In this document: positions 2,749 through 44,912 of the stretch, in pieces
How the letters are laid out: each line of letters opens with the position of its first letter
How positions within the stretch are numbered: the first letter of the stretch is position 1
NCBI GenBank assembly: GCA_017554235.1
Contig: JAFZIV010000029.1
Span: forward strand, 1-46,467
Direction: 5' to 3'
Source of the DNA: Selenomonadaceae bacterium
GTDB lineage: Bacteria > Bacillota > Negativicutes > Selenomonadales > Selenomonadaceae
Length of the DNA: 46,467 nt
The notes under the pieces: model-generated
Told to the model about the DNA's origin: nothing
Databases searched by the model: none
What the model saw: the letters and a program-made list of their open reading frames with translations, nothing else
Program-made: the position numbers and the translations under genes

Positions 2749-3732
2749 TTAAGAAATTGCGTATAAAACCAGCTCTGTTTCCGCTATGCATGTATGCTTG
2801 CGGAGATAAAGTTTGTAATCGGCATGGAGACTTTTTATAAACTGCGGAATTGTAATTAAATCTTCCGCCTTATGATATGCGCAAATTGCCAGCATAGGTT
2901 TATCTCGTTTAATAGTTTCCGTTGCACCGCGCAGAGCGTTCAATTCGCTACCTTCAATGTCCATTTTTATAAATCCAATCTTCGTATCGCCGACAATATC
3001 GTCAATTTTTTCAGCATCAATCGTAACGTTTCCTTCATCTGATACGGAGGAGCTTGTTTCGTTATCACTGCTGAAAGTTATTTTTGTCCTTTCATTCCAT
3101 ACGCCGCAGTTTAAAGTTGAAACATCGCGATAATTTTTTTCACGCACAAATTTTTCAAGTGCATCAAAATTATTTTTATCGGCTTCAATGGCAAAAACTT
3201 TTGTATAATTACCGCCGCTCCAATTTATGAATTTTTCTACAGTGTCACCGTTGTACGCGCCGCAATCCACGTACCCCCCCCCGTTCAGGGTTGAAGTCAA
3301 TTCATTAAAATATTGATTCGGATCGTATACAGGGAAATTGTATGAAGGATTGCCCGTGATTTTTGCCTTAAGGTAGGCAATCATTGTTTGCCTTGATAAA
3401 TCGTCGCTCAGTATTTCAAAAGTATCAGCAAACTCATAACGCCGTGCAGAAATATATTCATAATCAATCGTCGCTAATTCCCACGTTAAAACGTATCTAA
3501 TAATCTTTTTGTCTTTAAAAAATTTAATGGCACGCTCTTCATCAGTTGTTCCTAAAACAAAAACGTATTTGTCGTGTTGCTTTGAAAGTTCCTCAAAATT
3601 GTAAACGGGCTTGCCGAGAAATTTCTTGTTAGGTTGAAAATATTTTTCATCGACCGCGTAACCGTCCACTTCAACGCCGAATCTTGAAAGTTCATTGCTA
3701 AAACGCTTTGCATTGTGTGCCGCGCCCAACAT
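2749..3732 (-). CDS. FkbM family methyltransferase, 5' end frameshifted, internal poly-G tract
   Basis: SAM-dependent methyltransferase of the FkbM family, 327 aa from the ATG at 3732. An N-terminal Rossmann-like segment (GAAHNAKRFSNEL) precedes the methyltransferase domain. That domain has the SAM motif YVDCGAYNGDT at about residue 155, the acidic FAIEAD strand and the family block IGFIKMDIEGSE at about 250. A run of nine G (C on plus, 3274-3282) encodes the Gly-Gly-Gly just before the SAM motif. The homologous frame continues upstream of the ATG with hydrophobic, family-like residues but is cut off by a frameshift (see 3733-3838). The gene therefore either starts late at a poorly supported ATG or is a frameshift variant. 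Methylation of a surface or flagellar glycan is inferred from context. Confidence 0.8.
   Translation of the reverse strand: MLGAAHNAKRFSNELSRFGVEVDGYAVDEKYFQPNKKFLGKPVYNFEELSKQHDKYVFVLGTTDEERAIKFFKDKKIIRYVLTWELATIDYEYISARRYEFADTFEILSDDLSRQTMIAYLKAKITGNPSYNFPVYDPNQYFNELTSTLNGGGYVDCGAYNGDTVEKFINWSGGNYTKVFAIEADKNNFDALEKFVREKNYRDVSTLNCGVWNERTKITFSSDNETSSSVSDEGNVTIDAEKIDDIVGDTKIGFIKMDIEGSELNALRGATETIKRDKPMLAICAYHKAEDLITIPQFIKSLHADYKLYLRKHTCIAETELVLYAIS
3274..3282 (-). repeat. poly-G tract (G9) inside the FkbM methyltransferase gene
   Basis: Nine consecutive C on plus, G on the coding strand, encode three glycines immediately before the SAM-binding motif. Runs of this length are slippage-prone. 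A one-base change would truncate the protein before its catalytic domain, the usual design of a contingency (phase-variable) gene. Variation itself is not shown here. Confidence 0.75.
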
Positions 3733-3838
3733 AATTACAGGCCAACCGTGACTTTTAATTTTTTCACAAGTCTTAACGCGTGCGTTCGTCTTTTAAACTT
3801 TCAAATTTCTGCAGAACCATTTCAAAATTTTTATCCAA
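3733..3838 (-). pseudogene. out-of-frame 5' part of the FkbM methyltransferase gene
   Basis: On the minus strand, a TTG at 3838 preceded by GGGGTGA opens a 21-codon frame (MDKNFEMVLQ...) that stops at 3773. The FkbM frame, open from about 3790, reads KTCEKIKSHGWPVIM directly into the annotated ATG. Joining the two at about 3775-3781 (within ACGCGTT) by one extra base gives one smooth N-terminus with a proper ribosome-binding site. The natural start was therefore probably 3838, and the sequenced copy carries a one-base deletion or a sequencing error. Confidence 0.6.
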
Positions 3839-3865
3839 TCATTTCACCCCTTAAATTTGCGCACG

Positions 3866-3905
3866 AAAAAACCGCCAAATCAAAATCAACTTTTGAAATG
3901 ACGGT
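3866..3905 (-). terminator. terminator-like hairpin in the leader of the FkbM operon
   Basis: On the minus strand, arms of 15 bases (ACCGTCATTTCAAAA and its near complement; 12 Watson-Crick pairs, one G-U and two mismatches by eye) enclose a 5-base loop and are followed directly by T6. It sits between the short poly-G frame and the FkbM ribosome-binding site, as in an attenuator. It could also simply end an upstream transcript. Confidence 0.5.
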
Positions 3906-3934
3906 TAAATATTTGTATGATAAATTAGAGAGAC

Positions 3935-3979
3935 CTACCCCCCCCCCTTGTGGAAGGCGTACCCGCACTTACTTTTCAT
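3935..3979 (-). CDS. 14-codon leader-like reading frame ending in a poly-G tract
   Basis: An ATG at 3979, with AGGAG 11 bases upstream, opens a frame for MKSKCGYAFHKGGG and then stops at TAG right after a run of ten G (3938-3947). With eleven G the frame would continue for 49 aa and end at 3831, overlapping the TTG start of the FkbM frame. That is the geometry of translational coupling. With nine G it stops within a few codons. Translation is unproven, and the product matches nothing I recognise. It may be a leader peptide, a phase-off small gene or a relic. Confidence 0.3.
   Translation of the reverse strand: MKSKCGYAFHKGGG
3938..3947 (-). repeat. poly-G tract (G10) upstream of the FkbM gene
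   Basis: Ten consecutive C on plus (G on minus). This is the second long homopolymer within 670 bases, on the same coding strand as the one inside the FkbM gene. In an AT-rich genome two such runs at one locus are unlikely by chance and suggest slippage-based variation. Confidence 0.75.
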
Positions 3980-4272
3980 AACTTTTGCATCTCCTATCCT
4001 TCAAAAAATTTCTCAATACCAAATCAAATTTTTATTTAATTTATCATAAACGACCGGCTTTTTCAAGCCCCCTCAATTTAAATGGAAAAATTTCTTTAGA
4101 CATTACCGATATTTTGTTTCCTAAAATTTTTCACAATATGAAGGAACTTTGCTAAGTCGGGCGAATATTTAATTGATTTAAATTCGGTAAAACGCATAGA
4201 GCATTGAAAAGTTACAAGGAAATTTTTTGAGCAGTCTTTAACATAAGGTTGCGAAAAAGAGGAGTGACGCTA
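3980..4272. other. intergenic region between divergent modification and chemotaxis genes
   Basis: AT-rich sequence between the minus-strand FkbM set and cheB. It must hold promoters for both directions. On the minus strand TTGAAA and TAAATT 17 bases apart (around 4030-4060) are a possible but imperfect promoter. For cheB no convincing sigma-70 or sigma-28 promoter could be picked. No conserved gene or known riboswitch motif was recognised here. Confidence 0.5.
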
Positions 4273-5430
4273 ATGATTCGTGTATTGATTGCTGACGATT
4301 CGGCGTTTATGCGGAAAGTACTTTCAGATTTATTTGCCAAACAAAGTGACTTTCAAGTAATAGGCACAGCAATCAATGGGAAAGATACTGTTGATAAGGT
4401 TAAAAAACTTAAGCCGGACTTGCTGACTTTAGATGTGTTGATGCCGGTAATGAACGGACTCGACGCGCTGGCAATAATTATGGACAATAATCCGTTGCCG
4501 GTCGTAATGGTAAGCAGTATGACGCAAGAAGGTTCGGACGCCACAATACGCGCACTTGCATTGGGCGCAGTTGATTTTGTCGGTAAAGCAGGCGGACCAA
4601 TTTCAAAAATCGACACGATAGAAGATGAAATTCTAAGGAAATGTCGAGACGCGGCACAGGCACACGTTTTTAAAACTCGTCCATTAGCAGATTCAAAGCC
4701 CATTGTATATACACCTAAGCCGAAAAAGCCCGACCCGCCGGTTATGCGCAGAATTGAAGTTAAACGGCGTTCAGGTTATGTACCGGGACAAAAGCCGGAG
4801 ATTGTTAAAATTCCTGCCGCAAATGTTCCCAAGCCTGTTTATGCTCCAAGTGTCAGCGGAAAAAAATTGGTTGCCATAGGAACTTCGACTGGAGGACCTC
4901 AAGCCCTTCAATCTGTCGTAACGCGCTTACCTGCCAATCTTCCCTGCGGCGTTGTGATTGTTCAACATATGCCTGCGGGTTTCACAAAATCTCTTGCAGA
5001 TCGTCTTGATTCAATCAGCGAAATTGCAGTTAAGGAAGCCGAGCACGAAGAAATTATCCGCGCAGGTCAAGTTTACATAGCACCGGGAAATTATCATTTA
5101 AGGGTTGCTAACGTTGCAGGTGGCGGCAAGAAAATTTTACTTAGTCAAGAACCTCCTGTAGGAAATCATCGCCCCGCAGTTAATGTTATGTTTGATTCGG
5201 TTGCGCAATTCGGTAATGACTTAGTGTCCGTGATTATGACGGGTATGGGTGCTGACGGTTGCGAGGGTATGAAAAAAATTAAAGCTAACGGCGGTTATTC
5301 CATAGCGCAGGATGAAAAAAGTTGCGTCGTTTACGGTATGCCTAAAGCAGTTGTCGACGCGGGACTTGCTGACGAAATATGCCCTCTTAATAAAATTGCT
5401 GAAGCTATCGTTGAGGCTGTTAAACGTTAA
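4273..5430 (+). CDS. cheB: chemotaxis response regulator protein-glutamate methylesterase
   Basis: 385 aa from the ATG at 4273, with GAGGAG eight bases upstream. The frame is open eight codons further to a TTG that lacks a site. An N-terminal receiver domain (LIADDSAFMRK; phosphoacceptor Asp in TLDVLMPVMNG at about residue 53; AVDFVGK) is joined by a proline-rich linker to a CheB methylesterase domain. The domain carries the catalytic Ser in GTSTGGPQAL at about 206, His in VIVQHMPAGFT and Asp in IMTGMGADG. It removes methyl groups from (and can deamidate) methyl-accepting chemotaxis proteins when phosphorylated by CheA, giving adaptation. It is the first gene of the chemotaxis cluster. Confidence 0.97.
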   Translation: MIRVLIADDSAFMRKVLSDLFAKQSDFQVIGTAINGKDTVDKVKKLKPDLLTLDVLMPVMNGLDALAIIMDNNPLPVVMVSSMTQEGSDATIRALALGAVDFVGKAGGPISKIDTIEDEILRKCRDAAQAHVFKTRPLADSKPIVYTPKPKKPDPPVMRRIEVKRRSGYVPGQKPEIVKIPAANVPKPVYAPSVSGKKLVAIGTSTGGPQALQSVVTRLPANLPCGVVIVQHMPAGFTKSLADRLDSISEIAVKEAEHEEIIRAGQVYIAPGNYHLRVANVAGGGKKILLSQEPPVGNHRPAVNVMFDSVAQFGNDLVSVIMTGMGADGCEGMKKIKANGGYSIAQDEKSCVVYGMPKAVVDAGLADEICPLNKIAEAIVEAVKR

Positions 5431-5482: not shown

Positions 5483-5658
5483 CCGTTACTGATAAATTTT
5501 TATGTTGACTTATCTAACAAACACCGTATAATCTAATTAGTTCTTATTTTTAGACATACGGTTTACAAAAAATTTCCGCGCAGAAACGCAAATTTGTAGA
5601 AAATAATGCAAGCGTGCAACATAAAAATTTATACTTTTAAAAAGTTTTTCAGTAACGG
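5483..5658. repeat. inverted-repeat-bounded insert between cheB and cheA
   Basis: Left arm 5483-5507 begins CCGTTACTG and ends TATGTTG. The right arm is its exact complement in two pieces, 5617-5632 and 5650-5658 (CAGTAACGG), separated by a 17-base palindromic A/T insert. The outer bases are therefore 25-bp inverted repeats around about 110 bases of non-coding DNA. A perfect AAGGAGGTG lies just left of the element, while cheA, eight bases right of it, has no ribosome-binding site of its own. It looks like a small MITE-like insertion or a structured leader. Confidence 0.6.
5505..5532 (+). promoter_or_regulatory. sigma-70-type promoter upstream of cheA
   Basis: TTGACT and TATAAT are separated by 16 bases, a near-consensus promoter. 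It lies inside the inverted-repeat element and overlaps the end of its left arm, so the element may supply its own promoter for cheA and the genes after it. Confidence 0.65.
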
Positions 5659-5665
5659 TATTTGA

Positions 5666-7792
5666 ATGGAAACTAATCAATATATGGAGATGTTTCTGGA
5701 CGAATCGCACGAACATTTGCAGTCTCTGAACGACGGTCTTCTTGGTCTTGAAGATAACGCCGAAGATTTATCCGTACTCAATGAGATTTTCCGAAACGCC
5801 CATACTTTGAAGGGTATGTCAGCGACAATGGGCTATACCAAAATCGCTGAACTTACTCACGAAATGGAAGACGTACTCGATATGCTCCGCAAAGAACAGC
5901 TCAAAGTCAGCGAAGACATTATCGACACGCTTTTCAAATGCGTTGACTCCCTCGAACAGATGATTGATAACGTCGGTAACGGTGAATCCGAAGATTTAAT
6001 CGACGTATCGGCACTTGTATCGAAGTTGTCAGCAATCTTAAGCGGTAAAGCCGCTCCCGCCGCAGATGCCGCCGCATCAGCTCCTGCGCCTGCACCTGCT
6101 ACGTCCGCACCTTCACCTGCTCCCGCCGCTAAATCTGTCGCAAAATCTTTTGACTTGACGGAATCCGAAAAATCCGTTATCCAAGAGGCAACCAGTAGCG
6201 GTCTTCGCGGTATTCATTTAACCGTAACTTTGGCGGAAACTTGCTTGCTGAAATCTGCGCGGTCTTACATGGTTATGAACGCACTCGACGAAGTTGGCGA
6301 AGTTATTAAGACTATCCCGCCCGCCGAAGATTTAGAGCAAGAAAAATTTGAACGTAGTTTTGAAGTTCTGTTGGTTTCTCCCGCAGAAGAAGCGGCGATT
6401 AAAGAAGCCGTTATGAACATTTCTGAAATTGAAAAGGCGGAGACTGAAATTATTGATTTAAATGCTAAACCTGAACCTGCACCTGAAGTTAAGTTGGAAA
6501 AACCTGTAGCTCCTCCACCTCCTCCCGTAACATCTTCAGCTGCCGCAAATTCCCCTGCGCCTGTAGTCAATAAAGCACCAGTTACATCGAAATCTGCACC
6601 TCCTCCAGTTCAATCCGGTGGTGCCGGTGCATCCAAGAAAGCGCATGCAAGTCAGTCTGTCCGCGTCGACATTGATAAACTTGATACGCTGATGAACTTG
6701 ATGGGAGAACTCGTTGTAAACAAAGTTCGTCTTGAACAGATTGGACAAACTCACAGACTTTCCGAACTTACTGAAACTCTTGAGCAGATGGACAGAGTTA
6801 CCACCGACCTTCAAAACATCGTTATGAAAGTCAGAATGGTTCCTGTCAGTCAAGTATTTAACCGTTTTCCGCGTATGGTTCGCGACGTTACTAAGGAACT
6901 CAACAAAGAAATTAACTTGACTATCGAAGGTGAAGAGACAGAGCTTGACCGTACCGTTATTGACGAAATCGGCGATCCTATCATGCACTTGCTTAGAAAT
7001 TCGTTGGATCACGGTGTAGAAATGCCGGAAGATCGCGTTAAGAAAGGCAAGCCACGTGTTGGTGAAGTTAAGCTGATAGCGCGTCACGAAGGTAACAACG
7101 TTGTCATAATGGTTACTGACGACGGTAAAGGTATTGACGCTGATGTAATTCGTCGCAAGGCTGTTGAAAAGGGACTGTTCACACAGGACGAAGTTGAACG
7201 CATGGACGACGCGGATGCGGTTAGAATTATTTTCTTGCCCGGTTTCTCGACAGCTGAAAAGATTAGTGATATTTCAGGGCGCGGCGTCGGTATGGACGTT
7301 GTGCGCAGTAAAATTGAATCGTTAAGCGGTCACGTCGACGTTGAAACGCATGTAAATGAAGGTTCAGTTTTCAAAATTAAATTGCCGTTGACTTTGGCAA
7401 TTATTCAAGCAATGCTCGTCAAAGTTCAAGAAGAAGTTTACGCAGTACCGCTCGGCTCAATCGACAGCACGATTAATATTCAGCCGGATGAAATTAAAAC
7501 GGTTCAAAATCACGAAGTAATTGTCCTGCGCGGTGAAATTATTCCTATAATTCGTATGGAACAGACATTGTTTGTGCCGCACGTTAAAGACTCTGAAGAA
7601 CTCTTTGTAGTCGTCGTACACGCCGGCGAATCAAAAGCAGGTATTGTTGTAGACAAGCTGATTGGGCAACAGGAAATCGTTATAAAGACGCTGGGCAATT
7701 TGTTTATGGGTCTGAAAATGTTCTCGGGCGCAACGGTACTTGGTGACGGACGTATTGCGCTGATTCTCGACGTTGCTACGATGTTGAACTAA
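5666..7792 (+). CDS. cheA: chemotaxis sensor histidine kinase
   Basis: 708 aa CheA. An HPt domain has the phospho-His in NAHTLKGM at about residue 46. Two Ala/Pro-rich linkers (about 130-155 and 270-330) flank a P2-like region. Then come the dimerisation helices (LDTLMNLMGELVVNK), the HATPase with H/N box LLRNSLDHGVE, DDGKGID and SGRGVGMDVV, and a C-terminal CheW-like domain. It phosphorylates CheB and CheY in response to receptor state. The ATG at 5666 gives the expected family N-terminus, but no Shine-Dalgarno is visible in front of it (only AACGG). The nearest good site is about 180 bases upstream, across the inverted-repeat element. Confidence 0.97.
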   Translation: METNQYMEMFLDESHEHLQSLNDGLLGLEDNAEDLSVLNEIFRNAHTLKGMSATMGYTKIAELTHEMEDVLDMLRKEQLKVSEDIIDTLFKCVDSLEQMIDNVGNGESEDLIDVSALVSKLSAILSGKAAPAADAAASAPAPAPATSAPSPAPAAKSVAKSFDLTESEKSVIQEATSSGLRGIHLTVTLAETCLLKSARSYMVMNALDEVGEVIKTIPPAEDLEQEKFERSFEVLLVSPAEEAAIKEAVMNISEIEKAETEIIDLNAKPEPAPEVKLEKPVAPPPPPVTSSAAANSPAPVVNKAPVTSKSAPPPVQSGGAGASKKAHASQSVRVDIDKLDTLMNLMGELVVNKVRLEQIGQTHRLSELTETLEQMDRVTTDLQNIVMKVRMVPVSQVFNRFPRMVRDVTKELNKEINLTIEGEETELDRTVIDEIGDPIMHLLRNSLDHGVEMPEDRVKKGKPRVGEVKLIARHEGNNVVIMVTDDGKGIDADVIRRKAVEKGLFTQDEVERMDDADAVRIIFLPGFSTAEKISDISGRGVGMDVVRSKIESLSGHVDVETHVNEGSVFKIKLPLTLAIIQAMLVKVQEEVYAVPLGSIDSTINIQPDEIKTVQNHEVIVLRGEIIPIIRMEQTLFVPHVKDSEELFVVVVHAGESKAGIVVDKLIGQQEIVIKTLGNLFMGLKMFSGATVLGDGRIALILDVATMLN

Positions 7793-7879: not shown

Positions 7880-8356
7880 ATGGCAAAAGATAAAGTTGCT
7901 AATGATCATAGCGATGATCAATCTATGGATGCCGGTATACAAGTCGTTGCCTTCAAATTGCGCGACGAAGAGTATGGAGTAAATATTTTTCAGGTACAGG
8001 AAATTCGTAATTTGGTAGACATTACGCGCGTACCTTTTTCCGCCAACTACATTAAGGGCGTTATCAATCTGCGCGGAAGCGTTTTGCCTGTTATCGACTT
8101 GAAAAAGCGTCTCGGTCTTGAGCAAACTCCTTACACGGACAAAACCAGAATCGTTACGGTAAAAGTCGGCGATTTGCCCGTAGGAATGCTCGTTGACGCC
8201 GTGACGGAAGTTTTAACTATCACGACAAAATTGGTTGATACTAAAAAAGCTATCAGCGAAAAGGATATTGGAAAATTTGTAAGCGGCATAGGGAATATGG
8301 ACGGGCGTCTTGTCATTATGCTGAACTTAGAGGAAATTGTAGGGTTGCCGGTGTAA
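7880..8356 (+). CDS. cheW: chemotaxis coupling protein CheW
   Basis: 158 aa single CheW domain. It carries the SH3-like core landmarks VVAFKLRDEEYGV near residue 15, IFQVQEI, FSANYIKGVINLRGSVLPVIDL at about 50-70 and the closing MLNLEEIVG. It bridges membrane chemoreceptors and CheA. AAAGGGGG lies about 15 bases before the ATG. The gene lies between cheA and cheC in the same orientation, with a heptamer-repeat hairpin upstream that may adjust its level relative to cheA. Confidence 0.96.
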   Translation: MAKDKVANDHSDDQSMDAGIQVVAFKLRDEEYGVNIFQVQEIRNLVDITRVPFSANYIKGVINLRGSVLPVIDLKKRLGLEQTPYTDKTRIVTVKVGDLPVGMLVDAVTEVLTITTKLVDTKKAISEKDIGKFVSGIGNMDGRLVIMLNLEEIVGLPV

Positions 8357-10865: not shown

Positions 10866-12545
10866 GTGGGGGATAAAAACGATTATCCTAAATTAGGAGG
10901 TAAAGACGCAGGATATTTATTTGAATTTAAAGAAGACGGCGTATATTTGACGATATACCCCAACACGGCGGATTCTCTCCTTTTTGAGCTTTCGGATATG
11001 CGCCAAATCTTACGAGAAAGCGGCGTACCAAATTACGATGTGGCAACTTTGTCAAGAACAGTTCGCGAGGCATCGGGTAATGCTCAAAAAATTGCCGATC
11101 CCGTCGCTGTCAGTGCGGAACAGCTCGAAAAAGTCGGTACTGAATATGCCGAAGCGTCTATGGCGGGAATGGACGACGTTTCGGAGACTTACGCCAAAAT
11201 CATCGTCGATGTAAGCCGCGATAAGATGAAGGCTACTGTCAGATACGATACGAAACACGGCACAAAAATCCCTACGTTTGAAATGATTCTCGAAACACTT
11301 AAGTCAATGAAAATTACTGTCGGCATTGATGAAGATGAAATTCGCAGGAATTATACGCGGATGAAACCTTTTGTTGCCGCTATCGGTCAATCGCCCGTTA
11401 CCGGTGACAATGCTTACATTGACAGGAAATTCGACTTAAGCACAAAAGGGCGTCCCGTTGTCGACGAATACGACCGTGTCAATTATAAGGATATGAACTT
11501 ATTCGTCCTCGTCAAGGCTAATGAAACTTTAGCAATTAGGATACCGCAGACTAAAGGCAAACCCGGAAAAAATATTTTTGGTGAAATTGTTCCCGCACAA
11601 AATGGGCGTCCTATTCCTATGCCCGCCGGTAAAAATACAAAAATCATCGGCGAAAATCAACTTGTAGCAACGATTAACGGACAGATTGTCGACACGGGAA
11701 ATAAAATCAGCGTTGACCCGCGCTTAGAAATTCAAAGTTCGGTAGGCGTCGGTACAGGTAACATTGACTTTGACGGAACTGTTACGATTGCGGGAGACGT
11801 TAATCAGGGCTTTTCCGTAAAGGCAACGGGCGACATTGAAATTAAAGGAAGTATTAACGGCGCGGAAGTCACAGGACGAAATATCGTTGTAGGCGGCGGC
11901 TTGACGGGTGCCGAACGCGGTAAAATTCAAGCACAAGAGAATGTAACAATCTCTTTTGTTGAAAATGCTGTCATTGAAGCCGGCGGAGATATTACGATTA
12001 TGAAGTTTGCCTTGCACTCAACATTACGCGCAGGTAAACGAATTACTCTTGAAGGTAAACAGGGACAACTGACGGGCGGAATTGCTACTGCCGGTGAAGA
12101 AGTTTCTGCGCGGTATATAGGTAATAGTGCTCACGTAGTTACTCGCGTTGCCGTAGGTGTTGATCCTAATCTTCAAAAAGAATATCACGAAGTTTGCAAG
12201 AATTATAAAGAAGGCAAGAAAAAACTTCTTCATATTACGCAAACGCTGAATACCCTTGCAAAAATTGATATTAATACTTTGCCGCAAAGTCGCGTAGATC
12301 AGATTAATTCCTTGACGCGTTCACAATTCCCTATTGCCGGACAACTTAAACGTGATGAGAAAAAGATTAAGGAACTTGAAGAAAAATTAGCCGAAATGAA
12401 ACATGGTAAAGTTCGTGTAGACGATACGATTTTTCCGGGTGTTCGTCTTTCCATAAATAGCATGGTTAAAAATGTTCAAGAAGTTTATAAACACTGCACG
12501 ATGTACCTTGATTCAAACGGCGAAGTTGCTTTAGGACCTTTCTAA
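10866..12545 (+). CDS. FapA (DUF342) family polymer-forming-like protein
   Basis: 559 aa from the GTG at 10866; an alternative GTG lies four codons earlier, too close to the AAAGG. An N-terminal region of about 230 aa is followed by a DUF342/FapA domain. This has TKGKPGKNIFGE at about residue 240 and a right-handed beta-helix of GDV/GSI repeats (TIAGDVNQGFSVKATGDIEIKG at about 310-330). A C-terminal coiled coil lies at about 440-520. Family members are often encoded in flagellar operons of Firmicutes, and their biochemical role is poorly known. It lies 60 bases after the sigma factor, in the same direction. Confidence 0.85.
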   Translation: MGDKNDYPKLGGKDAGYLFEFKEDGVYLTIYPNTADSLLFELSDMRQILRESGVPNYDVATLSRTVREASGNAQKIADPVAVSAEQLEKVGTEYAEASMAGMDDVSETYAKIIVDVSRDKMKATVRYDTKHGTKIPTFEMILETLKSMKITVGIDEDEIRRNYTRMKPFVAAIGQSPVTGDNAYIDRKFDLSTKGRPVVDEYDRVNYKDMNLFVLVKANETLAIRIPQTKGKPGKNIFGEIVPAQNGRPIPMPAGKNTKIIGENQLVATINGQIVDTGNKISVDPRLEIQSSVGVGTGNIDFDGTVTIAGDVNQGFSVKATGDIEIKGSINGAEVTGRNIVVGGGLTGAERGKIQAQENVTISFVENAVIEAGGDITIMKFALHSTLRAGKRITLEGKQGQLTGGIATAGEEVSARYIGNSAHVVTRVAVGVDPNLQKEYHEVCKNYKEGKKKLLHITQTLNTLAKIDINTLPQSRVDQINSLTRSQFPIAGQLKRDEKKIKELEEKLAEMKHGKVRVDDTIFPGVRLSINSMVKNVQEVYKHCTMYLDSNGEVALGPF

Positions 12546-13018: not shown

Positions 13019-14248
13019 TTGATTACCGAATTGATGATTGTGCTGATAGCTGTCGGCGCAGGAATTATTTTTATTGTCTGGCTAAATTCAAGAAGGCGTC
13101 AGAATAGCGAACTCGATCAGCAAGATATTGAGGATTCAACCAATAAGTTTAAAAAAGATTTGGAGAATACCGCTAACGAAATTATTGGGCGTATGCAGGA
13201 GCAGGCGTCGAATTTGGAAAACCTTTTGGATCATTCTGAAAGAAACCGTACACAACTTGAAGGGCGCGTCTCCGAACTTAAAAAACTCCTCAAAAAAAGT
13301 GAAGGGCAATCAACGGAAATTCGTGATCTCTTAGCGCGATTAGATGAAGCAGTTGACGACGTAAACGTTATGCAACAACAAATGGATTTAGTCGAACGTA
13401 AACTCAACGCGGCAATCAGTATGCCAATGCAAGCAATGCCTCAAATGGTACCGCCGCCGTTGCTTAACTCCATGATGCAGGCACAACCCGCACTTCAACA
13501 AGCTATGGCGCGTCAACAAATGCCGCCGCAACCTCTCAATCCGCGTCAAAGTAACCTCGTGCCGTCGATAATGTTAAAAACTCCGCAAGCACAAGCCGCC
13601 GCACAAATGGTTCAAGCTCCCGAAACGTCAGAAGAATTTGCAAAAGTTTTGGCACAATCTATGGGCGCGGGCGTCCGTCAACCTGTACCACAGCCCGACC
13701 AAAATTCTGTACGACTTACACAAAAAACTAATCGCCAAGTTCGTATGGTAAATTCTCCGCCTGTACAAGTCGGCGGTAATCCTGCCGCTAATTCCACGCA
13801 GTCGCCTTCAAATTTGAGTTCACTCGAAAGACGTTCAAGACTTTTGGCGGAAAGATTATCTGCGATGAAAGGCGGCAGTCCCGCGTCTACACCAGCTCCA
13901 ACTAATAAACCTATTCAGACGGGAATTTCAACCGCTCAATCAACCGATGTCAGACGCGCCGCACTTGACGCTATCAGCCGTGTTAATGATAATCGTCCCG
14001 CACAAACTACGCCTTCTGCTCAAAATCCCGCCGGTACTTATTCGCCGCCGCGTAAAACTCCACAACCTTCTGCTAATCCTCAAACTGCTCAAACTGCCGC
14101 GCAGGCTCAAGCTAACGAAACTGCAATTATTAAAAGTATGTTGCTTGCCGGTATGACTGTTGAAGAAATTGCGCGTGAAACAGGTATTGGGCGCGGTGCT
14201 ATTGAACTTGTTCAACAAATTATGCGTCTTCAACTTGGTAGAAAATAA
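13019..14248 (+). CDS. membrane-anchored coiled-coil protein with C-terminal helix-turn-helix (DUF6115-like)
   Basis: 409 aa from a TTG preceded by AAAGGTGA. One N-terminal membrane helix (residues 3-22) is followed by an Arg-rich stop. A long coiled coil runs from about 35 to 135, then a Gln/Pro/Ala-rich low-complexity linker of about 220 aa. The C-terminal module SMLLAGMTVEEIARETGIGRGAIELV is a helix-turn-helix-like segment resembling the DUF6115 domain found near flagellar genes. Function is unknown. Anchoring with an HTH-like end suggests a scaffold or local regulator. It has its own promoter after the che terminator. Confidence 0.75.
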   Translation: MITELMIVLIAVGAGIIFIVWLNSRRRQNSELDQQDIEDSTNKFKKDLENTANEIIGRMQEQASNLENLLDHSERNRTQLEGRVSELKKLLKKSEGQSTEIRDLLARLDEAVDDVNVMQQQMDLVERKLNAAISMPMQAMPQMVPPPLLNSMMQAQPALQQAMARQQMPPQPLNPRQSNLVPSIMLKTPQAQAAAQMVQAPETSEEFAKVLAQSMGAGVRQPVPQPDQNSVRLTQKTNRQVRMVNSPPVQVGGNPAANSTQSPSNLSSLERRSRLLAERLSAMKGGSPASTPAPTNKPIQTGISTAQSTDVRRAALDAISRVNDNRPAQTTPSAQNPAGTYSPPRKTPQPSANPQTAQTAAQAQANETAIIKSMLLAGMTVEEIARETGIGRGAIELVQQIMRLQLGRK

Positions 14249-28252: not shown

Positions 28253-28957
28253 TTAATTTGTCAGCTGAATAAAAATTTCTTCAAGCGATTTACCGTTACA
28301 AAGATTTTTCGTAGTGTCAAGTGCAACTAATTTTCCGACGTTCATAATTGCCACGCGATCGCATAAAAATTCAGCTTCCTCAATGTAATGCGTAGTCAAA
28401 ATTATTGTAATTCCTTGCGACTTAAGATTTTGAATCAGTTCCCAAATTTTTCTTCTGACTTGCGGGTCTAATGCTACGGTCGGTTCATCTAAAAATAAAA
28501 TTTTCGGCTCGTGAATCAGCGCACGAATTATCAATAATCGCCGCTTCATTCCGCCAGATAAACTTTTTACGAAAGAATTTTTAACTTTTTCCAATTCAAC
28601 GAAGTTTAAAAGCTCGTCGATTTTTTTTTGACGCAAATTTTTAGGTAAATGGTAAAGCCGCGCATGAAGTTCTAAATTTTCATAAACCGTTAAATCTTGG
28701 TCGAAATTTAAATGTTGAGGTACGATACCGATTAAATTTTTTATCGCAATTTCATTACCCTGCGGCAATTTATCTTCAAAAAAAATATGCCCTGCAGTCG
28801 GATTTAACTGCAGAGTCAACATTTTTATCGTAGTAGTTTTACCCGCGCCGTTTTTGCCCAATAATCCAAAAATTTCTCCGCGCAGAATCTCAAAACTTAA
28901 ATCATTTACTGCGATTATCTCTCCGAATTTTTTTGTAACATTTTTAAGTTTTATCAT
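28253..28957 (-). CDS. ABC transporter ATP-binding protein, orphan
   Basis: 234 aa from the ATG at 28957 (TAGGA upstream). Walker A GKNGAGKT lies at about residues 38-45, signature LSGGMKRRL at about 133 and Walker B ILFLDEP at about 152, followed by the switch His in LTTHYIEEAE. It resembles the ATPases of ABC-2 exporters of the daunorubicin/NodI type. No permease gene lies in either direction: the next gene is convergent (dac) and the upstream one is the GGDEF gene eight bases away. It may therefore be cotranscribed with c-di-GMP genes, and its partner is unknown. Confidence 0.9.
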   Translation of the reverse strand: MIKLKNVTKKFGEIIAVNDLSFEILRGEIFGLLGKNGAGKTTTIKMLTLQLNPTAGHIFFEDKLPQGNEIAIKNLIGIVPQHLNFDQDLTVYENLELHARLYHLPKNLRQKKIDELLNFVELEKVKNSFVKSLSGGMKRRLLIIRALIHEPKILFLDEPTVALDPQVRRKIWELIQNLKSQGITIILTTHYIEEAEFLCDRVAIMNVGKLVALDTTKNLCNGKSLEEIFIQLTN

Positions 28958-34065: not shown

Positions 34066-35052
34066 ATGAACGTCGTAATAGAACTTCCTATGGAAGAGAT
34101 GAGGACTTTTTTCTACGAGATAACAGAAAATCCCGAATGGCTTTACCTTTTCGCACCGTATAGCATAGGAGATTTTCTGATTGCCGGAGGTCTTTCCTAC
34201 GCCGTGCAAGCCAAAAAAAATAAAAGTGCTACCGTCTTAATCGCGCAGGATAGAATGAAAAATCTTGATGTCAGCTACGAAAATGTTATCGGTACAATTT
34301 ACGTTCCTGTTGATTTGATTAAAGCAGCGAACGCTTTCATACACGAAACCGAAATTTACGAGCGTGATAATTTCATCTATGGAAATTTCCATGCGGGAGA
34401 TAATCACGCCTACGACGATACTTTAACCGCCGTTGACAGATTTAAAAAATACGTCTTTGATTTGCCGATTGACACGCCGATTGTCTACCCTACAATCAAG
34501 GCTCTGGATTATGAAAGTATTTCTAATCTGCGCGGAAAATATATTTTAAATAAAAAGCGAACCATTATTCTTTTGCCGCAAGCTAAAACTTTTAAAAATC
34601 TTGACGAAAATTTTTGGATAAAAATGGCAAAAATTCTGGACGAAAAAAATTATATTGTCTATACCAACGTTGCTGATGACGAAAAGCCTGTAGAAGGAAC
34701 TTGGCCGATTACTACAAATTTTTCAGAGTTGTATTATATTACTGATAAGGTAAAATGTTTTATAGGTATGCGTAGTGGAATTTTTGATTTTCTTGCAATG
34801 ACGGACGCAAAAATTTTTAACATAATTGATTTTCCCAGATGGGATTGGGACATTAAATTTAACTATCCGAATTGCGATGCGCAGACTTTTTATGACGCCG
34901 TGCAATATCGAGAGCCGCTTGAAAATAAATTAAAGTCGCAGGGATTGCCGCCAAAAATTGAACTGAATCACGAACACATTGCTATGAAAGATATTTATTT
35001 TTCTTACGAAGATATTTTAGGCGCAATTATTAACGCCATAGAAAAAATTTAG
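34066..35052 (+). CDS. GT-B/GT9-like putative glycosyltransferase, paralog 1
   Basis: 328 aa, with AGGAG before the ATG. It has an N-terminal APYSIGDFLIAGGLSYAVQ segment resembling the GD loop of heptosyltransferase-type GT-B enzymes. The C-terminal half reads RTIILLPQAKTFKNL at about residue 168, a Rossmann-like strand NYIVYTNV, then [25 protein letters not shown] at about 228-252, similar to the nucleotide-sugar-binding half. The next gene is a clear paralog with the same landmarks. Glycosyl transfer in surface polysaccharide synthesis is inferred from fold and the neighbouring gmd and DUF4254 genes. Acceptor and donor are unknown. Confidence 0.7.
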   Translation: MNVVIELPMEEMRTFFYEITENPEWLYLFAPYSIGDFLIAGGLSYAVQAKKNKSATVLIAQDRMKNLDVSYENVIGTIYVPVDLIKAANAFIHETEIYERDNFIYGNFHAGDNHAYDDTLTAVDRFKKYVFDLPIDTPIVYPTIKALDYESISNLRGKYILNKKRTIILLPQAKTFKNLDENFWIKMAKILDEKNYIVYTNVADDEKPVEGTWPITTNFSELYYITDKVKCFIGMRSGIFDFLAMTDAKIFNIIDFPRWDWDIKFNYPNCDAQTFYDAVQYREPLENKLKSQGLPPKIELNHEHIAMKDIYFSYEDILGAIINAIEKI

Positions 35053-35064: not shown

Positions 35065-36066
35065 ATGCCGGAACAACAACAAATTACGCTCGAATCTGTG
35101 AAAAATTACATTAAAGAGTTGACACCAAAAAAAGATTTACTTTACATAATTCAGCCCTGTAGTGTTGGAGATTTCTTTTACACGGGAGGATTATCTCTCG
35201 CCGTTCAGAAACGTAAAAATAAACGCGCCACTGTTTTAATCGTCAAGGATCGTATGAAAAATCTCGGTGTCACTTACAAAAATTTTGAAGATATTGTTTA
35301 CATTCCAAATGACACGATGAATATTGTAATGCAATATTTTTATGTTAGCGGTGACTACGAAGGTGACAATTACATTTATGGACACTTCCACAAACCTACA
35401 CAAGGCGGAAATTTTATTTGGGACGAAACTTTACATTTGATTGACCGCTACAAAAAAGATGTTTTCAAAATTCCTATGGATACTCCATACGCTAAGCCTG
35501 TCGTGCCGAAAATTTCCAATGAGAATATCGCCGAACTTCATGAAAAATATATTATCGATAAGAATCGCACGATTATCATCACGCCTTACACTCACTCCAC
35601 TAAGCAACTTGATATGCGTTTTTGGATGTTTTTATCTATGGTGCTTATGGAAAAAAATTATATCGTCTATACAAATGTAGATGGAATTTCAGAACAAGCC
35701 GTACCCGGTACAGCCCCCATCACTACAAATATGCGCGAACTTTATTATATTGCTGACAAAGTGAATTGCTTTATTGGTGGACGCGTTGGAATTTTTGATT
35801 TTCTTGCAATGACGGACGCTAGGACATTTACCATTAATACTTTTCCCGATTGGCTTTGGGATGTAAGCGAACTCTATCCGCATTTCAATAATCATAGTTT
35901 TTTTAACGCAATAGATTATGTTCAACCGGCTACAAATTATTTTAAAGAAAAAGATGTTTCCGCGCAGATTAAACTTTCACATTCGCACATAAAAAATGAG
36001 GACATTGTTTATTCCTATGAAGAAATTTTTAATAAAGTTTTAAATGGTGTAATCAATATAAATTAA
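35065..36066 (+). CDS. GT-B/GT9-like putative glycosyltransferase, paralog 2
   Basis: 333 aa, 12 bases after its paralog, with GAGGAG before the ATG. Shared blocks include the [14 protein letters not shown] loop, [40 protein letters not shown] and [25 protein letters not shown]. The two proteins align end to end by eye, so the pair arose by tandem duplication. The Arg-Ser of the first copy's GMRSG is GGRVG here, which might change donor or acceptor choice. Function is inferred as for the first copy. Confidence 0.7.
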
Positions 36067-36086: not shown

Positions 36087-37121
36087 TTGAAAGTCGCACT
36101 TATTACAGGAACGACGGGACAAGACGGCTCATATTTGTCCGAATTACTTTTATCGAAAGGCTACGAAGTTCATGGGATTCTTCGTCGCCACAGCACCAGT
36201 GGAACTGAAAAAATTGACCATATTTTAAACGACAAAAATTTTGCAGGGAAATTTTTTCTGCATTACGGCGATTTAACGGACTCAAATAATTTGACGACAT
36301 TGGTTAGAAAAATTTTGCCTGACGAAGTTTACAATTTAGCCGCGCAGTCTAATGTAGGAACGTCATTTGAAATTCCTGAGTACACGGCGGAAGCTACGGG
36401 CGTTGGGGCAGTAAGATTGCTTGAGGCGATTCATCAAATTAAGCCTACAGCAAAATTTTATCAAGCCTCGACTTCTGAACTTTTTGGCGGCTTACCTGAT
36501 ACCGCCCCACAAAGTGAAAAAACTCCTTTTCACCCCAGAAGTCCTTATGCGGTGGCAAAACTTTATGCTTATTGGATAACCGTCAACTATCGCGAATCTT
36601 ACGGGCTTTTTGCTTGCAACGGAATTTTATTCAATCACGAATCGCCAAGACGCGGTGCAGATTTTGTTACTAGGAAAATTACTCTTGCCGTTGCAAAAAT
36701 TATGGCGGGCAAACAGGAAAAACTTTCTCTCGGCAATTTAAATTCTAAACGCGATTGGGGATTTGCGGGCGATTATGTCGAAGGTATGTGGCGTATTTTG
36801 CAACAGGATAAGCCTGATGATTATGTTTTAGCGACTGGAGAAACGCATACAGTTCGCGAATTTGTCGAGGCGGCATTTGAGCAAGTCAACGTAAAAATTC
36901 GTTGGGAAGGTGAAGGCGTCGACGAAAAAGGTTACTGTGAAAAAACCGGCAAATTACTCGTTGATGTTAATCCTGAATTTTTCCGTCCTGCCGAAGTCGA
37001 TTTACTTTTGGGTGATCCCACGAAGGCTGAAAAAAATCTTGGCTGGCATCGCAAAGTTTCTTTTAAAGATTTGGTAAAAATTATGGTTGAATCTGATTTG
37101 AAAAAGTTTGGAGTGAGGTAA
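36087..37121 (+). CDS. gmd: GDP-mannose 4,6-dehydratase
   Basis: 344 aa extended short-chain dehydrogenase. It starts [27 protein letters not shown] and keeps the catalytic STSELFG (Thr/Glu) at about residue 130 and YAVAK at about 155. The Gmd-specific [16 protein letters not shown] lies at about 187. It converts GDP-mannose to GDP-4-keto-6-deoxymannose, precursor of GDP-fucose, rhamnose or perosamine sugars. The next pathway enzyme (fcl, rmd or per) is not in the window. TTG start with GGAGAG upstream. It sits between the GT-like pair and the DUF4254 genes. Confidence 0.96.
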
Positions 37122-38595: not shown

Positions 38596-39513
38596 CTATC
38601 CAATAGAATCAATCTCATAAGGTGTCTCTTGATAGACGTAATAGTTTAACCAATTCGCAAAAAGTAAATGCGCAACCGACCGCCATTTTACAACGGGTTC
38701 ACGTGACGGATCATCATTAGGATAATAATTTTGCGGAATGTTGGGATTAAGCCCCGCCTTAACGTCGCGCTCGTATTCACTCTTCAAAGTGTACGGATCA
38801 TATTCAGCATGTCCCGTTATGAAAAATTGCCGCTTGTCCAAATTCGCAATCGCATAAATCCCCGCGTCGTCCGATTCTGCTAAAATTTTCAGTGCCGGAA
38901 CTTTTTCTAAATCTGCGCGGCGAACTTCTGTATAACGTGAATGCGGAACAAAAAATTCATCATCGAATCCGCGAAAAAGTTTTTCATGTCGCACGCACAA
39001 TTTATGACGATAGACGCCGGAAATTTTCTCGTCCAAAGTAAATTTCGGTATGCCGTAATGATAATAAAGACCCGCTTGCGCTCCCCAACAAATATGGAAT
39101 GTCGACCAAACATTTTTTTTGCTCCACTCCATAATTTCTTTGAGTTCATTCCAATACGCAACATCTTCAAAATCTAACAACTCAATTGGCGCACCCGTTA
39201 TTATCAAGCCGTCGTATTTTTTATTACGAACGTCATTGAAAGTTCCGTAAAATTCCGTGAGATAATTTCTTGACGTATGCGTTGGAATGTAAGTTGCTGT
39301 GTAAATAAAATCTACTTCAACTTGCAACGGCGTATTTCCCAAAAGTCTCAAAAGTTGTGTTTCAGTTACTGATTTTATCGGCATTAAATTCAAAATCAAA
39401 ATTTTAAGCGGGCGTATGTCTTGCGTATAAGCTCTGTCCGCGTCCATTACAAAAATATTTTCGCTTTCCAAAATGTTCGTTGCAGGTAAGTTATTTGGAA
39501 TTTTTATCGGCAA
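38596..39513 (-). CDS. metAA: homoserine O-acetyltransferase of the MetA family
   Basis: 305 aa from the TTG at 39513, with GAGGTGA seven bases upstream, giving the family start [11 protein letters not shown]. MetA-type transferase: catalytic Cys142 in [12 protein letters not shown], His in FITGHAEYD. Codon 111 encodes Glu ([10 protein letters not shown]). Glu at 111 marks acetyl-CoA users and Gly marks succinyl-CoA users in this family, so the product is predicted to be O-acetylhomoserine for methionine synthesis. The numbering fits exactly when the TTG is residue 1. It follows hemC on the minus strand. Confidence 0.93.
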
Positions 39514-39566: not shown

Positions 39567-40475
39567 CTAAGTCATAATCCCTAAAATTTCTCGTCCGCCG
39601 TTTGCTAAAAGTTTTTCGGCAAAATTTTTTCCGAAGTTATCAAGATTTTCAATCGTATCAACGGCAGTATCCTTAACAAAATTTTTCCCGTCAAGCGATG
39701 CGATAACTGCACGAGCAAAAATTTTATCTCCGTCAACTTCAGCAAAAATGCCGACGGGAATTTGACAACCTCCACCCACGACTTGAAGAAAATCACGTTC
39801 AACTTTTACTTCCGCGCAGGTTTCGTAATCATTCAAAAATTTTATGGCGTCAAAAGTTTTACTGTCATCTGCGCGAATTTCTACAGCAATAGCACCTTGC
39901 CCAGCCGCAGGAATTATCTGCGTTAAAGTCTGATTTATTCGCGAATCATAGCCAAGACGTTTAAGACCAGCCGCCGCCAAAATTACCGCGTCAAATTCTC
40001 CGGCGTCAAGTTTTTTCAATCGCGTATCGACGTTACCACGTAAATTTTTTATTGTCAAGTCAGGACGCAAAATCAAAATCTGCGCGGCACGTCTCAAGCT
40101 TGAAGTCCCGACAATCGCGCCTTGCGGAAGTTCATCAAAATTTGAAAATTTATTGCTTACAAAGGCGTCAAAAGGATTTTCGCGCCGAGCTATAACGGCG
40201 ATTTTAAATTTTTCGTCAAGTTCCGTCGGTACGTCTTTCAAGCTGTGTACTGCAATATCAATCTTTCCCGACAAAAGTTGAAGTTCCAATTCCTTCGTGA
40301 ATAAACCCTTGCCGCCAATTTTTGCAAGCGGTGCGTCCAAAATTTTATCGCCCTGCGTCTGAACCTTGACGAGTTCAACTTCAATGTTCGGATTATTTTT
40401 TACAATCTCCGCCGCAATAAAATTTGATTGCCATAAAGCTAACTTACTGCCGCGAGTTCCAATTTTAATTTTCAT
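39567..40475 (-). CDS. hemC: porphobilinogen deaminase (hydroxymethylbilane synthase)
   Basis: 302 aa from the ATG at 40475, which overlaps the end of thrC by 11 bases; an in-frame TTG five codons upstream is possible. [23 protein letters not shown] at about residue 80, [10 protein letters not shown] at about 125 and the dipyrromethane-cofactor Cys in GGGCQIPVG at about 236 are visible. It condenses four porphobilinogens to hydroxymethylbilane for haem, sirohaem and B12. No other hem genes are adjacent. Confidence 0.96.
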
Positions 40476-43005: not shown

Positions 43006-43007
43006 CT

Positions 43008-43034
43008 CTTAAAAGCTTAAAGCTATAAGCTGAA
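43008..43034. repeat. short period-7 repeat in the DUF1858 leader
   Basis: aaagctt, aaagcta, taagctg in tandem, 15 bases before the start codon. The gctt/aagc units can pair with each other. A short member of the heptamer-repeat class. Confidence 0.4.
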
Positions 43035-43049
43035 ATGGAGTGAAACTTT

Positions 43050-43280: not shown

Positions 43281-43310
43281 AATTTTTTCTTTAAAAATTT
43301 GTAAAAAAAT

Positions 43311-43338
43311 TATCCCGATGATTGGTCGGGATTTTTTT
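43311..43338. terminator. bidirectional terminator
   Basis: ATCCCGA and TCGGGAT form a perfect 7-bp stem around a 7-base loop, with T7 on the plus strand and an A7 run before it, so it can end both the DUF1858 transcript and the convergent gene at 43354. Confidence 0.8.
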
Positions 43339-43353
43339 ATTGAAAAATTGTTT

Positions 43354-43761
43354 TTATAAATTGTAGCGTTCAAGTTCAGTGACTTCGACATTTTCTGATT
43401 TAATTTTTAAATTCCAGTAAATATCATCACAATCTGAATCAGAAATTGTTTCGACAGAAAAAATTACAAAATTTCCGTCTTCGTCAATGTCAGCAGAATA
43501 AATTTCGCTGTCGAGTTCATTTGAAAAAATTTTTTCTGAAATATTTTCGTCGTATTCAAGAAACGAAACATTTTCAAAAGTTACGGAAATTTTTCCATTA
43601 GTAGGCTCATCATTTTTGTACCAATTTTGCATCCAAAAACAAAATTCAATCGTCAGCGTAAGATTTTTAGTTTTTTCGTCGAAATTAATTTTTTCAATGT
43701 TGCTGTCGTGCAAATAATATTTTTCCGCAAATTCTGTAATTGTCAATTCAATCATCCTCAT
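43354..43761 (-). CDS. small acidic protein of unknown function
   Basis: 135 aa, acidic, soluble. It starts IELTITEFAEKYYLHDSNIEK; a YxLHDSxI block near residue 16 followed by alternating beta strands (NLTLTIEFCFWMQNW, GKISVTFENVSFLEY) is seen in several uncharacterised small proteins. I cannot assign it. The start at 43761 has only a weak site; a second ATG two codons later is equally possible. It is on the opposite strand to both neighbours and more AT-rich than them, perhaps acquired. Confidence 0.65.
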   Translation of the reverse strand: MRMIELTITEFAEKYYLHDSNIEKINFDEKTKNLTLTIEFCFWMQNWYKNDEPTNGKISVTFENVSFLEYDENISEKIFSNELDSEIYSADIDEDGNFVIFSVETISDSDCDDIYWNLKIKSENVEVTELERYNL

Positions 43762-43881
43762 TTCTTTTTTGAAATAATGCGTGATTCATCAGAACCTTTT
43801 CTAATTCTGTCTTACTTCATGATATTTTTCAAGGTGTTCAACTTATTCTTGCAATCCGCCAAAAATTTTGGCGTTATAAAA

Positions 43882-43911
43882 TTGTGGACAAAATCCCTGC
43901 CACGTTATAAA
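43882..43911 (+). promoter_or_regulatory. possible promoter for corA
   Basis: TTGTGG and TATAAA, 18 bases apart, about 50 bases before the corA start. Confidence 0.4.
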
Positions 43912-43958
43912 ATAATTTAGAAATTATTTTTAGTTTTGTACGGGAGGAGGCGCGAAAT

Positions 43959-44912
43959 TTGCTCGAAATTTATAAATCGCAGGAATCAGGACATCTTGAG
44001 GAATTGACGCTGAAAACTCTTGAAAAAGGTGCGTGGATAAATATCATTGATCCAACACCTTATGAATTAAAGGAAGTAAGCGCGGCTACAAATGTTGAGC
44101 CGGATTTTTTGCGCTCCGCATTGGACGACGAAGAACGCTCTCACATTGACGTTGAGGAAGAATCAATAATGATTTTGACGAATGTTCCGATTGTCTACGA
44201 CGAGGAAAGTTACGATACTTTGCCGCTTTCTGTCATACTAACTAAAAAATATATCATAACGGTTTGCCTTGAAGAAACTCCCGTCATTGCCAGTTTTAAT
44301 CAACGAACTGCGCGGCTCTTCCACACGTATAAGCGTACGCAATTTCTTTTTGAAATTTTGTACCGCTCGGCGACTTTTTATTTGCGCTACCTTCGACAAA
44401 TTAATAAACTCTCTGATGAAATTGAAGATCAGCTTAGAGAGTCTATGAAAAATAGCGACATACTCCGCCTTATGGAATTGCAGAAAGGCTTAACGTATTT
44501 CAATGCGGCTTTGCGCTCCAATGACGCAGTGCTGGAAAAAATTATGCGCCTTCGCAGTAACAAAACTGTTGACGGTATTTTGGAAATGTACGAAGAAGAT
44601 GAAGACCTGCTTGAAGATGTTATCATAGAAAATAAACAGGCGCGTGAGATGGTTGAAATGTACAGCCAAATTCTTTCGCAAATGGCGGATATCTTTTCTT
44701 CGATAATTTCTAACAATCAAAATAAAGTTATGAAATTTCTTGCGGCAGTCACAATTATTATCGCCGTTCCGACAGTCATAGCAAGTTTTTTCGGAATGAA
44801 TGTCCCCGTGCCAATGGAGGGCAACGATTACGGATTTATGATTGTCATGGTAATTGCTTTTATAGCGTCAACAATCGCCTCATACTTCTTTTGGAAAAAT
44901 CGAATGTTTTAG
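43959..44912 (+). CDS. corA: CorA family magnesium/divalent cation transporter
   Basis: 317 aa from a TTG preceded by GGGAGGAGG. A cytosolic alpha/beta domain and long stalk helix precede two C-terminal membrane helices. The first ends in the signature GMN (ASFFGMNVPVP at about residue 280), and the second ends with a basic tail (FFWKNRMF). Pentameric Mg2+/Co2+ channel in the inner membrane. Single gene. An insertion element follows 19 bases after its stop. Confidence 0.95.
   Translation: MLEIYKSQESGHLEELTLKTLEKGAWINIIDPTPYELKEVSAATNVEPDFLRSALDDEERSHIDVEEESIMILTNVPIVYDEESYDTLPLSVILTKKYIITVCLEETPVIASFNQRTARLFHTYKRTQFLFEILYRSATFYLRYLRQINKLSDEIEDQLRESMKNSDILRLMELQKGLTYFNAALRSNDAVLEKIMRLRSNKTVDGILEMYEEDEDLLEDVIIENKQAREMVEMYSQILSQMADIFSSIISNNQNKVMKFLAAVTIIIAVPTVIASFFGMNVPVPMEGNDYGFMIVMVIAFIASTIASYFFWKNRMF

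Follow-up and report, generated by a model that had tools for sequence, protein, structure and literature searches.

The window analyzed here is a stretch of 46,467 bases (39% GC), contig 24 in the 65-contig genome of 2,274,839 bases from a member of the Selenomonadaceae, a family placed by taxonomy look-up in the class Negativicutes of the Bacillota. It encodes gatB, which served as our orthologue for finding relatives, building a tree, and following site turnover, and a type I restriction-like open reading frame (ORF); scattered over the window is the eight-letter word CCGCGCAG, the subject of this work. The encoded GatB is 91%, 92%, and 90% identical to that of uncultured Selenomonadaceae genomes from red deer, rumen, and sheep omasum, respectively, and about 80% identical to that of Selenomonas, Mitsuokella, and Anaerovibrio. 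These closest relatives, at 90–92% identity, agree with the assignment to the Negativicutes made in the original prediction, which had been drawn from the DNA letters alone.

Exact matching finds 30 copies of CCGCGCAG in the window (plus strand 18, minus strand 12; table 1), against 2.0 expected under a third-order Markov model (Markov-3), and the word ranks first by Markov-3 excess among all window 8-mers with at least eight copies. The original prediction had counted about 28 exact copies and expected fewer than one; its over-representation stands, with the exact count being 30 and the expectation having been set slightly low. An A or G follows directly 3' of the word in 27 of the 30 copies. 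The shorter CGCGCAG occurs 44 times, so that 14 copies deviate from CCGCGCAG at the first base only; at least ten such variants had been proposed, and the places named then are among the 14. The occurrence in both orientations and the presence of an intergenic copy, both claimed earlier, are likewise seen.

Abundance and Shape of the Word in the Genome

Across the whole genome (2.27 Mb), CCGCGCAG is found 755 times in forward and 753 times in reverse orientation, together 1508 copies or 663 per Mb, whereas the same word read backwards, our control, reaches 91 and 103 copies (194 in total). For finer comparisons we used a sample of this genome consisting of 20 stretches and the window (367,319 bases, 364,653 of them readable; all counts from here to the end of the next section refer to this sample unless stated otherwise), in which 270 copies were observed and 16.6 are expected by Markov-3. 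The proposed excess over a Markov expectation is therefore found genome-wide. A copy number in the hundreds to thousands, well beyond expectation, is what would be looked for in a DNA uptake sequence.

The sharp core CCGCGCAG is embedded in an asymmetric extended consensus, TTCCGCGCAGRTT, with T-rich positions before the core and (A/G)TT after it, and conservation fades about three bases outside the core. A sharp core with a weaker extension, present on both strands, is again the form of an uptake sequence; the loss of conservation about three bases beyond the core rules out spread as part of a long repeat. Among the 24 single-base neighbors of the word, two are raised, both at the first base: TCGCGCAG with T (68 observed, 12.8 expected) and ACGCGCAG with A (33 observed, 14.0 expected). 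The remaining 22 are at most 2.2-fold enriched (CCACGCAG, for example, with 8 against 3.6). Restriction-site avoidance was ruled out as a cause, given that avoided sites are depleted in a genome and CCGCGCAG is enriched.

Table 1.— Positions of CCGCGCAG and of other features; coordinates refer to the window unless a stretch of the genome sample (L) is named.
Feature	Position	Strand	Basis	Remark
CCGCGCAG	2927..2934	+	exact match	
CCGCGCAG	5058..5065	+	exact match	
CCGCGCAG	5576..5583	+	exact match	intergenic, between ORFs 4249-5430 and 5666-7792
CCGCGCAG	6255..6262	-	exact match	
CCGCGCAG	7526..7533	-	exact match	
CCGCGCAG	8069..8076	-	exact match	
CCGCGCAG	12106..12113	-	exact match	
CCGCGCAG	14097..14104	+	exact match	
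CCGCGCAG	15643..15650	+	exact match	
CCGCGCAG	16316..16323	+	exact match	inside type I restriction-like ORF
CCGCGCAG	17455..17462	-	exact match	inside type I restriction-like ORF
CCGCGCAG	17839..17846	+	exact match	inside type I restriction-like ORF
CCGCGCAG	19093..19100	+	exact match	59 bases before next copy, same orientation
CCGCGCAG	19152..19159	+	exact match	
CCGCGCAG	19376..19383	+	exact match	
CCGCGCAG	20097..20104	+	exact match	
CCGCGCAG	20301..20308	-	exact match	
CCGCGCAG	21396..21403	-	exact match	
CCGCGCAG	24137..24144	+	exact match	in gatB; CCGCGCAG or T variant here in 10/30 genus members
CCGCGCAG	24878..24885	+	exact match	in gatB; CCGCGCAG or T variant here in 4/30 genus members
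CCGCGCAG	27505..27512	-	exact match	no A/G directly after
CCGCGCAG	28878..28885	+	exact match	
CCGCGCAG	31225..31232	+	exact match	
CCGCGCAG	34528..34535	-	exact match	
CCGCGCAG	35960..35967	+	exact match	
CCGCGCAG	36340..36347	+	exact match	no A/G directly after
CCGCGCAG	38913..38920	-	exact match	
CCGCGCAG	39812..39819	+	exact match	
CCGCGCAG	40080..40087	-	exact match	
CCGCGCAG	44308..44315	-	exact match	no A/G directly after
First-base variants of the word (CGCGCAG copies)	9284, 15566, 22238, 27410, 41092			
gatB	23553..24992	+	Pfam GatB_N and GatB_Yqey	
1140-residue ORF	16090-19512			HsdR-like, N6-methylase, and specificity domains joined
ACTATTCACT	L096:2893 and 18355	+		forward copies among positions listed for six stretches
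2356-residue ORF	L093:12406-19476	-	weak RTX-repeat match in part read	in longest word-free gap
Six consecutive ORFs, 226-234 residues	L094:8904-13383			upstream of ATP synthase alpha/beta-type gene

Some features of the surroundings were recorded beside the word itself. The 1140-residue ORF carries six copies of CCGCGCAG per 3.4 kb, the densest among five window genes counted. The longest gap free of the word among the places listed measures about 18.5 kb and holds a very long ORF (table 1), and the next-longest in the sample contains ATP synthase genes and small paralogues; two of the six consecutive ORFs on L094 were scanned and gave no Pfam match. The gene content of these two longest gaps does not support their being foreign islands. 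A second over-represented word, ACTATTCACT, has 33 copies against 0.3 expected.

Codons, Strands, and Spacing

A simple gene caller predicted 289 genes (85% coding). A compositional or codon artefact would suit the GC-richness of CCGCGCAG and the common residues that it encodes in some frames (LRG, AAQ, SAQ). Yet the 252 coding copies compare with 11.5 ± 3.2 in 200 synonymous-codon shuffles (maximum 19), the enrichment is 14- to 36-fold in each of the six frames, and under a Markov-2 model it is about the same in intergenic DNA (20 against 1.03, 19-fold) as in coding DNA (252 against 14.0, 18-fold). Words made of the same letters, of which 150 of 280 were tested, have a median count of 2, and the highest, GCCGCGCA with 95, overlaps CCGCGCAG. 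The shuffles, the six frames, and the intergenic copies thus refute such an artefact, the chance of which we consider negligible, and leave a signal at the DNA level beyond codons, as in uptake sequences. The extension behaves similarly: RT follows the core in 30–70% of copies in five of the six frames and in 60% of the intergenic copies, with 16% in the sixth frame (19 copies) and a background of 19.5% after other GCAG.

With respect to the gene strand, 151 copies lie on the same and 101 on the opposite strand (p 0.002); that one orientation is commoner in genes is also reported for known uptake sequences (PMC2346458). With respect to replication, the ratio of leading to lagging copies is 92:72 (p 0.14; 95% interval 0.48–0.64), the leading strand having been inferred from a GC skew of at least 0.03 of the stretches and not from a closed genome. 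The word might be a Chi-like recombination hotspot or another polar word of chromosome maintenance, for example KOPS-like. Several Chi words are GC-rich. Chi words are also over-represented oligomers (PMC4390886), and 56% of the copies here do lie on the presumed leading strand. Strong polarity is, however, excluded by the interval and was not found in the sample, so that the strand counts provide no polarity favoring a Chi-type explanation, which had been named as the competing outcome. Furthermore, the palindromic form found in sister species (see below) has no direction, and the word changes between relatives, whereas we would expect Chi-like words to be stable. We therefore regard this explanation as improbable.

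The spacing of the copies is near random (coefficient of variation 1.08), with a mild deficit of close pairs, five being seen at less than 60 bases where 12.6 are expected. No excess was observed at gene ends, with 9 copies in the last and 21 in the first 90 nucleotides and 21 expected in each. Sites spread across the sample and avoiding close pairs could be expected if the word were bound by an abundant protein of the cytoplasm, nucleoid-associated or otherwise, with selection acting on spacing. Against this stand the otherwise near-random spacing and the equal enrichment of intergenic and coding DNA, which gives no hint of regulation, and such a protein would leave the restriction to one genus with one-base dialects unexplained; we consider it less probable still than a Chi-like word.

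Distribution, Dialects, and Turnover in the Genus

To follow the word among relatives, we counted the form CCGCGCAGRT in 189 Selenomonadaceae genomes, 66 from the genus of the host (the host included) and 123 from 29 other genera, calling a genome positive at 100 or more copies and at least five times the reversed control. This was the case for 38 of the 66 genus members, and none of the 123 genomes from the other 29 genera reached 100 copies (highest 94). Ten of the remaining 28 genus members carry an excess of the shared core GCGCAGRTT (at least 200 copies at four times the control or more), and two further members carry the palindrome TCCGCGCGGA. The other 16 fit neither the core nor the palindrome rule, although some show a weaker excess, for example G131 with 77 against 3.

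Word discovery on sampled stretches ranks CCGCGCAG first among 8-mers in G010, G124, G017, and, in one run, G120 (45–53% GC). TCGCGCAG is the top word in G034 (in the 19–23 kb sampled), and TCTGCGCA and CTGCGCAG are the top words in G121, where ACTGCGCAG counts 172 against 29 genome-wide; of the ten core-only members, these two are the ones with sampled stretches from which the first bases could be read. In G036 and G132 the top word is TCCGCGCGGA, with 592 and 841 sites, respectively, compared with 0–25 in the other 64 genomes; it is sharp, has an off-by-one excess chiefly at the first base, is present in all three frames, and lies one base apart from TCCGCGCAGA. The variants in sister species share an inner core, GCGC(A/G)G.

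A tree built from the PilT of 25 members places the 15 word-bearing members in a single clade of 17 (100/100), which also takes in the word-poor G013 and the weak G131; the palindrome pair branches beside this clade, and the six other word-poor members fall outside. The shared core and the tree are in line with dialects that track the species, but the CTGCGCAG dialect of G121 is placed among CCGCGCAG species in this one-gene, midpoint-rooted tree, for which the labels were assigned by us, and which has one very long branch (G003) and many weak inner forks.

The palindromic dialect brings in the main rival to an uptake sequence, an element like the highly iterated palindromes (HIPs) of Cyanobacteria such as HIP1, for which a methyltransferase and mismatch repair would bias mutation toward the word, or which would have a function linked to methylation, with no role in uptake. 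It ranks as the main rival because the over-represented cyanobacterial words are accompanied by a putative methylase that could modify them (PMC4390886). The same source describes HIP octamers of similar density (around 500–2500 per Mb) that vary between species, with deviations greatest at their two terminal bases; the G036 and G132 palindrome resembles them, and the first-position off-by-one excess of both the own word and the palindrome points in the same direction. The HIP words named in that publication are, however, palindromes. Only the word of G036 and G132 has this property, whereas that of the 38 positive members is nonpalindromic and is followed asymmetrically by RTT, inside genes as well as in intergenic DNA. 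On balance we find a HIP-like origin unlikely, although better placed than the Chi-like word.

Two word-poor members stand out through their restriction sites. In G013 not a single GCGC occurs in 82 kb, and G008 has six in 26 kb (observed/expected 0.00 and 0.06), compared with ratios of 0.42 to 1.14 in the other 25 genus members with at least 15 kb sampled. We infer a GCGC-cutting system in these two, under which a GCGC-containing word could hardly persist. GGCC is nearly absent in all 27 members with this amount of sequence (0.00–0.26), and GATC is strongly avoided in many; examples of site avoidance are the G013 stretches L117–L120, L213, and L219. Taken together, the avoidance of GGCC, GATC, and GCGC points to widespread restriction pressure in the genus.

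Turnover of single sites was followed in gatB of 30 members, where CCGCGCAG or its T variant occurs at four homologous places only. At alignment position 1216, six species encode PAQI with the full CCCGCGCAGATT, and the other 24 encode PEKI; the two differ by at least four base changes, with no intermediates among the 30 species, and the six are scattered over three parts of the gatB tree. This pattern fits a gain of the word as a unit, but no excess flank identity indicating recombination blocks was found round the PAQI sites. Motif residues did not prove significantly more variable between orthologues (0.324 against 0.237 over 244 sites; sign test, p 0.11); among five control sets, an excess was confined to the one that overlaps the word (0.292 against 0.240). 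A pooled figure of 0.32 against 0.18 includes repeated gatB loci and was not relied upon.

Competence Machinery and the Case for a Probable Uptake Sequence

The host encodes ComEC, PilT, a T2SSE ATPase, a T2SSF protein of PilC size, and a FimT-like pilin, and thus has competence and type IV pilus machinery, the pilin assignment being weak by Pfam. Within the genus, ComEC was found in 35 of 37 genomes searched. PilT is above the curated cut-off in 54 of 66 genomes and has any match in 65, some of which are related ATPases; T2SSF was present in ten of ten genomes, in nine of them at two-domain PilC size (the exception being G125). A four-gene pilin-like operon lies on contig 48 of the host genome; G017 and G124 have related operons, and parts of it recur elsewhere. 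By Pfam its first gene matches N_methyl and its third TadE, both below cut-off, and the fourth has no match. We chose the label FimT-like on the basis of size, N-terminus, and tail. With a profile built from the first pilin, near full-length matches were obtained in 58 of the 66 genomes (one fragment, four short N-terminal matches, three without match); its presence does not separate word-rich from word-poor members, and word-rich drafts are among those without a full match. A search of solved structures with the pilin returned weak pilin matches only (best E 0.025). The GRxR motif, conserved at the C-terminus of the DNA-binding FimT (PMC8897410), is found in 10 of 12 aligned FimT-like rows, including both palindrome species. 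Since the binding of Legionella FimT was read by its authors as not sequence-specific (PMC8897410), we treat the FimT-like pilin as a lead for the receptor and not as evidence of specificity.

Of the explanations considered, a DNA uptake sequence fits best, in view of the density, the asymmetry, the sharp core, the indifference to frame, the lack of strong polarity, the competence genes, and a distribution centered on one genus whose dialects differ by one base. We put the probability that CCGCGCAG is the core of a genus-specific DNA uptake sequence at about two in three. A pilus-borne receptor, possibly the FimT-like pilin or a partner from its four-gene operon, would bind the word on free DNA; retraction of the type IV pilus and ComEC would import fragments carrying it, and as the imported DNA recombined, the word would have spread over the genome by drive. 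With a change of receptor would come a shift of the preferred word and hence dialects, and a GCGC-cutting restriction system would erase it.

The likeness to known systems extends to several properties. The DNA uptake sequences (DUS) of the Neisseriaceae, such as AT-DUS, are short asymmetric words of similar length with many hundreds of copies or more, and in that family the dialects have an inner core in common and are distributed according to the species phylogeny (PMC3630211). They are recognized by the minor pilin ComP, whereas the receptor here is a candidate; the words are unrelated, hairpin pairs are lacking here, and the phylum is another one (Bacillota, Negativicutes). The uptake signal sequences (USS) of the Pasteurellaceae, of Hin and Apl type, likewise combine a GC-containing core with an AT-rich 3' extension and occur in two types (PMC12616744, PMC1939737), but the word differs and has no gene-end excess in our case. 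HIP1 and other HIPs share with CCGCGCAG the octamer length, the density, and the change between species, and differ in being palindromes without its asymmetric flank.

A number of observations weigh against an uptake sequence. Known uptake sequences show an intergenic excess and terminator pairs, the latter a common though not an essential trait, and CCGCGCAG shows neither: none of the five close pairs in the genome sample is inverted, and intergenic DNA has no excess beyond coding DNA. Conservation across orthologues also fell short, with gatB sites retained in 74 of 315 ordered comparisons, below the 0.299 of other GC-rich 8-mers (22 of 30 species, eight word-poor or variant species being left out). 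GCGCAGRTT exceeds its control in other genera as well, for example in g42 (52–167 against 3–18), and the plain 8-mer is four- to eightfold above control in a few of 23 genomes from other families (G054, 214 against 46; G055, 60 against 8; G056, 92 against 12), so the signal may not stop sharply at the genus border; these excesses may represent weak relatives of the word or codon effects. Many of the surveyed genomes are fragmented drafts. ComEC is also encoded in 10 of 14 control genomes, Escherichia coli included, so that its presence alone proves little, and the machinery survey covered ComEC, PilT, T2SSE, T2SSF, and pilin-like proteins. Word-poor members have the same PilT and FimT-like pilin, the pilin calls have weak Pfam support, and the FimT-like protein of the host itself ends in GRWS and not GRxR. 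Finally, the palindrome of two members and the enrichment of copies off by one at the outer base, the latter as reported for HIP1, have the look of HIPs. The uptake proposal of the original prediction is partly supported: it is favored by the counts, by the absence of significant polarity, by the concentration in one genus with variants in sister species, and by the competence and pilus genes, and it is not supported by terminator hairpins or by conservation of orthologous sites; we regard these two absences as differences from the known systems and not as contradictions.

A wider scenario, which we put forward tentatively and at slightly less than even odds, is that uptake sequences arose a third time, and here for the first time outside the Proteobacteria. 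In this gut genus of Negativicutes, an ancestral word would have diverged through single-base changes, giving no fewer than four dialects (the palindrome TCCGCGCGGA beside CCGCGCAG, TCGCGCAG, and CTGCGCAG) that would act as mating barriers between sister species, with GCGC-cutting restriction purging the word in some lineages. To our knowledge, no natural transformation has been described in this genus. Searches of open-access publications found no link between DNA uptake sequences and Negativicutes; the sole match combining an uptake sequence with Selenomonas concerned, by its title, Streptococcus phages, broader searches had no uptake words in Selenomonadaceae in the titles among the matches listed, and those listed for CCGCGCAG itself were by title on unrelated topics. 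Veillonella parvula belongs to the same class as the host. It is transformable and favors genomic DNA over PCR product, and the genomes of DSM 2008 and UTDB1-3 were reported to contain no word of at least ten bases at 100 copies, with shorter words left open (PMC5397411). A 2025 publication names the Neisseriaceae and Pasteurellaceae, both distant from this genus in the bacterial tree, as the only families for which selection of DNA by a short word at uptake is known (PMC12616744).

The roughly 1,500 scattered copies of an eight-letter word look like a "self" mark by which related DNA is taken up, and suggest that natural transformation is frequent in this gut genus. It also becomes possible to test in a relative the issue of uptake words that the Veillonella study (PMC5397411) had left unsettled. 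If the uptake sequence is real, this third case, in another phylum, would mean that DNA self-recognition by a short word evolves repeatedly, and dozens of sister species with differing dialects would be at hand in which joint changes of word and receptor could be traced.

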